A stretch of DNA of 64,000 nucleotides from Solirubrobacter pauli (GTDB lineage: Bacteria > Actinomycetota > Thermoleophilia > Solirubrobacterales > Solirubrobacteraceae): the NCBI RefSeq assembly GCF_003633755.1, contig NZ_RBIL01000001.1:543426-607425 (forward strand), written 5' to 3'. Every line of letters begins with the position of its first letter. Positions within the stretch are counted from its first letter, which is position 1. Positions 15,631 to 17,173 of this stretch are shown in pieces. Made by a program: the position numbers and the translations under genes. The notes beneath the pieces were generated by a model. That model searched no databases, had not been told where the DNA came from, and worked only from the letters and a program-made list of their open reading frames with translations.

Positions 15631-16365
15631 GTGGAGCGGCCGGACCACTTCGCGGGCGAGGTCGCGCAGCGCTACGACGAGACGTCGGCCGCGATGTTCG
15701 CCCCGGCCGCCGTCGACCCGGTCGTGGACGTGCTCGCCGAGCTCGCGGGCGACGGGCGCGCGCTCGAGCTGGCGATCGGCACCGGCCGGATCGGGCTGCC
15801 ACTGGCCGCTCGCGGCGTCGACGTCGCGGGCATCGAGCTCTCCGCCGACATGGTCGAGCAGCTGCGCGCGAAGGACGGCGGCGACGCCCTCGACGTGACC
15901 CTCGGCTCGTTCACCGACACCCGCGTCGACGGCGACTTCGCCCTCGTGTACCTCGTGTTCAACACGATCGGCAACGTGACCACGCAGGCCGAGCAGGTCG
16001 CCACCTTCCGCAACGCCGCCGCCCACCTCGTGCCCGGCGGCCACTTCGTGATCGAGGTCGGCGTGCCCGAGCTCCGCCGCCTTCCGCCCGGCCAGAACAC
16101 CCTCGTCTTCGAGGCCCGCGAAGGCAAGTGGGGCATCGATGAGTACGACCTCGTCGAGCAGCGCCTCGTCTCGCACCACTTCGAGGACCGCGACGACGGA
16201 CGCGTCCAGCGCACCTCGATGCCGTTCCGCTACGCCTTCCCGGCCGAGTACGACCTCATGGCCGAGCTCGCCGGCCTGCGCCTCCGCCACCGCTGGCACG
16301 ACTGGGACCGCTCGCCGTTCACCGGCGAGAGCACCAGCCACGTGTCCATCTGGCAGAAGCCGTAG
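15631..16365 (+). CDS. Class I SAM-dependent methyltransferase
   Basis: 244 aa with a Rossmann-type SAM fold. Motif I is ALELAIGTGRIGLPLAARG (about residues 45-63), motif II has the acidic GIELSADMVEQL, and the region YLVFNTIGNVTTQ follows. The ending HRWHDWDRSPFTGES is typical of a family of small-molecule methyltransferases often annotated only as class I. The substrate is unknown. The start is GTG 15631, 3 nt after the cupredoxin stop, so the two are probably co-transcribed. Confidence 0.82.
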   Translation: MERPDHFAGEVAQRYDETSAAMFAPAAVDPVVDVLAELAGDGRALELAIGTGRIGLPLAARGVDVAGIELSADMVEQLRAKDGGDALDVTLGSFTDTRVDGDFALVYLVFNTIGNVTTQAEQVATFRNAAAHLVPGGHFVIEVGVPELRRLPPGQNTLVFEAREGKWGIDEYDLVEQRLVSHHFEDRDDGRVQRTSMPFRYAFPAEYDLMAELAGLRLRHRWHDWDRSPFTGESTSHVSIWQKP

Positions 16366-16382
16366 CACCCGTCCGACCCTCA

Positions 16383-16400
16383 TGCGAACATATGTTCGCA
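16383..16400 (+). promoter_or_regulatory. Perfect LexA (SOS) box
   Basis: TGCGAACATATGTTCGCA is an 18-bp perfect palindrome containing GAAC-N4-GTTC, the Gram-positive/actinobacterial LexA box. It ends directly before the ATG at 16401 and contains a -10-like TATGTT, so LexA bound here would block transcription of the gene at 16401. Confidence 0.75.
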
Positions 16401-16739
16401 ATGACAGCGGACGGATCAGCTCACACCCGCCTTCGCCGGGCCATCCAGGCCGGCAATCTCGCGATCATCCACACCACGGCCGCCGAGCTCGGCCACATCA
16501 GCCTGCGCGACGCCCTCGGCATCCTCCTCGTCATCGAACGCGAGGCCGAAGAGCGCTTCGACGCGGCCGCCGTCCGCTGGGCGGGCCGCCTCGCCCTCGA
16601 GACGCCGGACCTCGAGCTGGCCGAGCTGGCCGGGGCCCTCGAATCGCTCGAGGCGCTGCCCGACGAGCACGCCCAACGAGTCCTCGTCGGATTGGCCGAC
16701 CGTGCGCGTCCGCTGGCGGGACGAGGTGGGCGCCGGTAG
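16401..16739 (+). CDS. Small alpha-helical protein under a LexA box, function unknown
   Basis: 112 aa from ATG 16401 (an in-frame ATG at 16392 lies inside the LexA palindrome and is less likely). It is predicted all-helical, with THTRLRRAIQAG-type and HISLRDALGILLVIEREAEERF-type amphipathic helices (first as AHTRLRRAIQAG, second as SLRDALGILLVIE) and an Arg-rich tail. It has no membrane segment, nuclease motif or DNA-binding motif I can name. I think similar hypothetical proteins occur in related Solirubrobacterales. The perfect SOS box just before the start implies induction by DNA damage. It stands alone, followed by a repeat-rich gene-less stretch. Confidence 0.6.
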   Translation: MTADGSAHTRLRRAIQAGNLAIIHTTAAELGHISLRDALGILLVIEREAEERFDAAAVRWAGRLALETPDLELAELAGALESLEALPDEHAQRVLVGLADRARPLAGRGGRR

Positions 16740-16760
16740 AGGCGAGCCCACCGACGCGTG

Positions 16761-16930
16761 CTGCGACGGGCGCCGCGCCCCGCGAAGTGTTCGCCGCGAC
16801 GGGGGGGGCGCCGTGCCGCGCGAATGGCTCGCGCCGACGGGCGCCGCGCCCCGCGAGTGGTCGCTGCGACGGGCGCCGCGCCCGGCGAAGTGTTCGCTGC
16901 GACGGGCGCCGCGGCAGCCGCGCCCGGCGG
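16761..16930 (+). repeat. Tandem array of five degenerate ~33-bp units
   Basis: Units begin near 16762, 16795, 16833, 16865 and 16898 (spacings 33, 38, 32, 33). Each has CGACGGGCGCCGCG near its start. Units 1 and 4 end in the inverted repeat GCGAAGTGTTCGC, units 2 and 3 in variants of it. The fifth unit is truncated and runs into GCC-rich sequence. A 33-bp period equals 11 codons, but no frame looks like a protein. Confidence 0.7.
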
Positions 16931-17100
16931 CGGCGAGGCTTTGTCGCTGGGCCGCCGCGCCGTTCAGCCACCGCGCCGTCGGACCGCTCTGCCGTCGGGC
17001 CGCCGTGCCCACTTCGCCACCTGCCAGCGCCGTGGGGTTCAGCGCACGACGCGTTGGCGTGCGCGGCCGCGTCAGGGGGAGCACACCGTCGGGCGTCGCG

Positions 17101-17159
17101 TCAAGAACCCGTGCGCGGACGGCGCCGGCGCTGCGCGGCGGCCGCCACGGGTTTCTTGA
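17101..17159. repeat. Inverted repeat with long GC-rich stem
   Basis: TCAAGAACCCGTG (17101-17113) pairs with CACGGGTTTCTTGA (17146-17159) with one bulged base. The sequence between is itself GC-rich and self-complementary. The ends resemble terminal inverted repeats but no transposase is present. Confidence 0.55.
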
Positions 17160-17173
17160 CCCGCCGCGGCCGG

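Follow-up and report, generated by a model that had tools for sequence, protein, structure and literature searches.

The window, meaning the whole 64-kb stretch of Solirubrobacter pauli DNA analysed here, contains a gene for a 112-amino-acid protein whose ATG at 16401 is directly abutted by a perfect palindromic LexA box, TGCGAACATATGTTCGCA. Comparison with relatives strongly supports placing this gene in the SOS regulon, with little room for doubt, and its family is very probably a new family of proteins induced by DNA damage. As to function, the best guess, to which we give about an even chance, is a soluble protein under LexA repression that assists SOS repair or mutagenesis. The evidence from sequence comparison consists of the box itself, conservation of the box together with the protein, the sharing of this box with lexA, uvrA and dinB, and an operon-like layout in two genomes.

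Features of the locus:
16383..16400, no strand: LexA (SOS) box, 18-bp perfect palindrome TGCGAACATATGTTCGCA (motif; 76/83 homologue loci)
16385-16398: core of the box, CGAACATATGTTCG
16401..16739, + strand: gene, with stop codon, for a 112-amino-acid soluble helical protein (open reading frame; ratio of nonsynonymous to synonymous substitution rates, dN/dS; profile matches in 102/232 genomes of the order)
16392..16400, + strand: in-frame alternative ATG inside the box (115-amino-acid form), probably unused (relatives start at the equivalent of 16401)
16373..16377, + strand: CCGAC, corresponding in the window to a weakly conserved YNGNC element that begins 12 nucleotides ahead of the box core (alignment of relatives)

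The LexA box and its conservation

The initial annotation had described an 18-bp palindrome ending at the ATG of a 112-amino-acid open reading frame, which is borne out by the coordinates 16383-16400 and 16401-16739, and had called it the sole GAAC-N4-GTTC in 64 kb. The count is correct, yet 0.55 occurrences are expected by chance in a sequence of this length, and at least one was present in 45 of 100 shuffled versions. Because its frequency is at chance level, the box statistics of the window were dropped as proof in their own right, and the case rests on comparison.

A scan of 93 homologue loci yielded tblastn hits in 90. Within the 250 nucleotides preceding the projected start, the box is perfect in 83 of these, has a single mismatch in three and is absent from four. 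Seven identical loci (L016, L045, L018, L046, L019, L047 and L051) were removed before the final count, a weak Pseudomonas hit (L048) was excluded, and L081, which lacks a usable start, was scored as box-less. The box is kept upstream of homologues, one of the two points on which the initial annotation had let its proposal stand or fall: it is perfect in 76 of 83 non-identical loci, a count that includes the window gene and its two paralogues, both of which are boxed. Only two other boxes occur in 278,796 bp from 82 of these loci. The position of the box is also constrained, with 62 of the 76 lying -1 to +4 nucleotides from the called start, ten at 6-19 and four at 39-100; among these last four the called start is doubtful in L073 and perhaps in L022. 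Where a start was called (89 loci in all), the box most often lies at -1 (28 loci, in which it overlaps the start codon) or +1 (24 loci).

A second set of 43 loci comprised 20 weaker-scoring loci within the order, 20 from outside it and three that had given no earlier tblastn hit (L080, L098 and L102) and were re-examined by profile. A perfect box precedes 14 of the 20 weaker-scoring loci and two of the three re-examined ones, the third having one mismatch. Outside the order, six of 20 loci have a perfect box and five have one mismatch; a one-mismatch box 172 nucleotides from the start of L189 was left uncounted.

The same motif marks recognised repair genes in the window's own genome, which encodes LexA. 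The pattern CGAACN4GTTCG has 14 sites in the 7.1-Mb genome versus four for a reversed control. These sites precede lexA itself, uvrA, dinB and dnaB (a second gene diverges from the dnaB site), as well as an Rv2578c-type radical SAM gene, an AlkB-like 2OG-Fe(II) oxygenase gene and the gene for a helix-turn-helix (HTH) protein. One further site precedes a 79-residue open reading frame without a match, one an indistinct reading frame (L002), and two lie inside reading frames (L007 and L014). The remaining three are the window gene and its two paralogues, all the family copies found in this genome, and the paralogues were found independently of the box, by protein search.

Genes outside the family show that this lineage habitually sets the box at the start codon. 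In the family-free relative G134 the box touches the start of dnaE2 and stands at the start of an imuB-like gene, with a TTG start read by eye, and in the window's own genome it touches the starts of dinB and the Rv2578c-type radical SAM gene. For the window gene, the start at 16401 is favoured over that at 16392 because the first codon in relatives is ATG in some and GTG in others, and in most of them a conserved M-T/S-S-x-G-S comes next.

Where transcription would begin is less clear. The -10-like TATGTT named in the initial annotation is present at 16391-16396, but it lies only 4 nucleotides from the ATG, too near for a usual start site, and was rejected as a -10 element. A scan for the sigma-70 consensus gave no promoter. 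In 17 of 76 relatives the motif TTGAC stands exactly 12 nucleotides ahead of the box core, and 76% have G at -10; taken as a promoter element, this TTGAC would not place the transcription start sensibly relative to the start codons observed. In some members whose box lies 13-19 nucleotides upstream of the start, a TANNNT hexamer is seen by eye between the two.

Tight LexA repression and damage induction of the window gene are predicted from this arrangement. In the undamaged cell, a LexA dimer on the palindrome would cover the junction of promoter and start codon and block transcription. DNA damage would lead to RecA-stimulated self-cleavage of LexA, freeing the box and allowing the small, soluble, all-helical protein to be made. 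We infer LexA binding and induction from the box and its conservation, and the accessory role from the context described below.

The protein and its family

The initial annotation had called the product a helical protein without a recognised domain, and both parts of this description hold. The window protein has no match in Pfam, NCBIfam, PHROGs, PADLOC or the PDB sequences, and a structure model built from a five-sequence alignment has six helices, at modest confidence (predicted local distance difference test score, pLDDT, 67). A profile of 35 members displays a conserved core, LxDAL ... RYxRAAxRWxxRxxxE. The 35 members gave only weak Pfam hits, among them HEAT_2 in three (best expectation value, E, 4.8e-4); a three-repeat solenoid was rejected, as hhalign profile comparison found no internal repeat. 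The window protein has no predicted membrane-spanning segment, its best 19-residue hydropathy being 1.36; the value exceeds 1.6 in one of 87 members.

The protein is under purifying selection. Its nearest named relatives are in Solirubrobacter deserti (92% identity), S. taibaiensis (86%) and S. soli (76%). Against S. deserti, dN is 0.060 and dS 0.702, a dN/dS of about 0.09, and against S. soli dN/dS is 0.25.

Of the 232 genomes searched in the order, 101 had a match in a protein search at E <= 0.01 and 102 with the 35-member profile at E <= 1e-5, the latter representing 28 of 54 genera. In a class sample the profile matched 112 of 399 genomes, 33 of these outside the order, and in a phylum sample four of 396, all within the order. 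Members are thus far known only from the class of the window's genome; these searches scored a limited number of candidates per genome, and misses are possible. Positive genomes have one to five matches.

Genomic neighbours and possible roles

A hint at function comes from the neighbours in two related genomes. On an 11.5-kb contig of G167, the only perfect box is followed by the family gene, an imuB-like gene, an 80-residue open reading frame and dnaE2, all in the same direction, and the imuB-like ATG lies 2 nucleotides behind the stop codon of the family gene. The same order of family gene, imuB-like gene and dnaE2 is seen in G168, with the start of dnaE2 at the end of the contig. The imuB-like protein of G167 has a weak IMS domain match, and its relative in G134 has NCBIfam polymerase IV hits far below the cut-offs and, by eye, lacks the usual first catalytic aspartate. 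In other bacteria, imuA occupies the slot ahead of imuB-dnaE2. The family gene of G167 and G168 sits behind one LexA box in a layout like that of imuA or imuA' in the imuA-imuB-dnaE2 cassette of mycobacteria and proteobacteria.

The likeness is one of position. ImuA is described as a RecA homologue in PMC12926913, whereas the family members are about 110 residues long and predicted to be helical, and none of 35 has a RecA match in Pfam; the adjacency to imuB and dnaE2 is confined to G167 and G168. In the same source, several DnaE2 systems are said to lack ImuA and to have RecA as a supposed partner, so a lineage-specific small partner is plausible. An operon of similar design, pvnz_37140-37135 on the Streptomyces venezuelae plasmid pSVJI1, encodes a LexA-controlled small protein followed by DNA polymerase IV; a table in PMC9380542 places the box at -14 and lists an induction of 15-fold after mitomycin C. 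The small protein pvnz_37140 was rejected as a homologue: in the 149,923 of 158,122 bases of pSVJI1 that were searched, the family profile gave nothing better than E 0.69, and the 83-residue reading frame behind the sole box match is not a family member by eye.

Other neighbours also belong to repair. A ligD gene lies within 1.2 kb of the family gene in 13 loci of two genera and in two layouts (gaps of 6 to 1,137 bp): in six loci, all of one genus, it is upstream in tandem, and in seven loci of the other genus it is downstream and points the opposite way; the ligD of L061 has a LigD_Prim-Pol match. A dinB gene is found 0.5-0.7 kb from three family loci, and a ligase-domain gene 1.1 kb from one of the own paralogues (paralogue A, L073). 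A fixed operon partner was considered and rejected; a single cluster, with ligD in it, accounts for 14 of 78 loci. ImuB-like matches at E <= 1e-20 (counted by eye, with a query that may also catch DinB) are present in 90 of 102 genomes with the family and 100 of 130 without it, indicating no strict dependence.

In the accessory reading, the protein would act as an adaptor rather than an enzyme, serving the error-prone machinery (an ImuB-like Y-family protein, DnaE2 or DinB) or LigD-type repair, and so would assist SOS repair synthesis and end joining. Of the effector types offered by the initial annotation, a part of the mutasome draws support from neighbours in a few related genomes, a membrane division inhibitor is unlikely because the window protein has no predicted transmembrane segment, and nothing specific favours a toxin. 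A bolder version holds that the family represents undescribed class-wide SOS effectors, comprising a non-RecA-like third part of an ImuB-like/DnaE2 mutasome in the imuA slot and an SOS adaptor whose partners include LigD, with the operator fused to the start codon in most; as a whole we regard this as possible, though doubtful.

Several findings count against reading the family as SOS-controlled accessory factors. Conservation of the box holds within the order and weakens beyond it, where no box was found in nine of 20 loci (the start of one, L170, was not placeable). LexA is nevertheless present in nine of nine class genomes tested, six of them with box-less members, and a narrower box, CGAACATRYGTTCG, occurs in eight of the nine (25 forward matches versus none for the reversed control), so in most of these genomes the regulator and its box exist while the family gene goes without. 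Within the order, 130 of 232 genomes are without a profile match. The loose 10-base pattern CGAACN4GTTCG occurs 19, 14 and 13 times in three family-free relatives, compared with 9, 16 and 3 times for its control; this pattern alone is not selective, and position and conservation therefore matter. The neighbourhood evidence has limits of its own: the window gene is flanked by methyltransferase and DUF3516 helicase genes, G167 and G168 belong to one genus and make the imuB-like operon a single event, no imuB-like gene was found beside the other scanned family copies, and the ligD, dinB and operon contexts come from few genera and were noticed after the fact. An imuB-like partner is not obligatory, because 12 of 102 family genomes have no such hit. 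Structure offers no match to an accessory-factor fold, as Foldseek with the model returned nothing at E <= 0.001 and the VIA structure list gave assorted helical proteins with a best Z of 5.7, which are no guide.

An unlikely alternative is an SOS checkpoint protein that would hold up the cell cycle by binding to a protein of division or replication, in the way of the cytosolic SulA of Escherichia coli. SOS division inhibitors also include the membrane proteins YneA, SidA and DivS, and all of these are small and LexA-controlled, as predicted for the family. Small size, a LexA box immediately upstream and, in most cases, no constant partner gene would suit such a role. No division inhibitor was recognised by eye among the genes at the 14 box sites of the window's genome, and a search of that genome for SulA (PF03846) found none. 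Streptomyces, too, lacks clear homologues of known inhibitors according to PMC9380542. However, neither the window protein nor the 35 members match the SulA domain in Pfam, the absent membrane segment sets the window protein apart from the membrane inhibitors, the recognised neighbours are repair genes, and the many genomes of the order without a match fit a checkpoint poorly. Quite unlikely is a modulator of RecA or LexA that, in the manner of DinI or RecX, adjusts how long or how strongly the SOS response runs. A small soluble protein under a strong box would suit it, and the proposal of RecA as a partner of inactive Y-family/DnaE2 complexes, made in PMC12926913, could explain the imuB-like/dnaE2 layout too. 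Against it, no DinI or RecX match was found in Pfam or NCBIfam for the window protein or in Pfam for the 35 members, and the calculated isoelectric point of members runs from 5.4 to 10.5 (5th to 95th percentile), a spread that leaves no conserved acidic, DNA-like surface.

We consider it very unlikely that the gene is mobile-element cargo, encoding a toxin, an addiction protein or a defence protein and placed under borrowed LexA control in the way of prophages and plasmids. Some family copies do look mobile, because each of the two own paralogues has recombinase or integrase genes at most 10 kb away. Paralogue A (about 1813-2250 of L073) has a perfect box, and its conserved N-terminus and body are in different frames; it may be broken, as a pseudogene or through sequencing error. 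The variable copy number per genome and the L116 member, on a contig classed as viral, point the same way. The window copy, by contrast, has a gene context common to S. deserti and S. taibaiensis (though not S. soli) and has no PADLOC match, and the family lacks the constant partner gene of toxin-antitoxin pairs. Spread by viruses or plasmids was not supported: the window protein matched none of 50,697 phage records, one other member matched none of 72,556 plasmid records, the A2 scan of viral contigs gave no relative, and a motif scan yielded 77 loci with no member at inclusion level. Only L116, among 27 stretches from a scan for the box-plus-start pattern, holds a family member. Scarcely credible, finally, is a regulator other than LexA. 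The family box (TGCGAACATRYGTTCGYA) is longer and more uniform than the uvrA or lexA boxes of the same genome, but the same core stands ahead of lexA, uvrA and dinB here and of lexA and dnaE2 in a relative.

Should the accessory reading be right in its link to the mutasome, error-prone repair, from which damage-induced mutation arises, would gain a component not recognised before. In the literature searched, the SOS regulons of this lineage have received little mapping; among titles and the beginnings of abstracts on LexA or SOS in Solirubrobacter, Thermoleophilia, Gaiellales and Solirubrobacterales, nothing about the family was found, nor in the passages of PMC4148983 consulted, and no paper carried these subjects in its title or abstract. 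A family in which LexA box and protein are kept together supplies readily usable test cases for the study of DNA damage in soil bacteria.

Additional observations

Upstream of several box-less loci, TAGAGT- or TAGACT-like hexamers are seen by eye. Next to the window gene, the methyltransferase gene (15631-16365) has a match below the cut-off to daptide-type methyltransferases of ribosomally synthesized and post-translationally modified peptides (E 2.7e-18). Just 3' of the window gene, 16760-16913 is a tandem repeat of 4.5 copies of a 33-bp unit, two copies of which contain, by eye, the palindrome GCGAAGTGTTCGC. The gap ahead of the DUF3516 helicase gene contains an inverted repeat at 17100-17160, GTCAAGAACCCGTG / CACGGGTTTCTTGAC, also seen by eye.

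LexA boxes were encountered at further genes. The Rv2578c-family radical SAM gene (L011, 2-1504) has an intein N-terminal region, and its GTG start overlaps a LexA box. Boxes touch the start codons of the HTH gene of the own genome (L010, 1501-2205) and of a DUF222-HNH gene in a related genome (L281), and in related genomes also the starts of two genes that are nuclease-like by eye (L283 and L286), as if selfish nucleases were under SOS control too. A perfect LexA box between the replicative helicase gene dnaB and a divergent gene is found in two genomes of the genus (L005 and L289).
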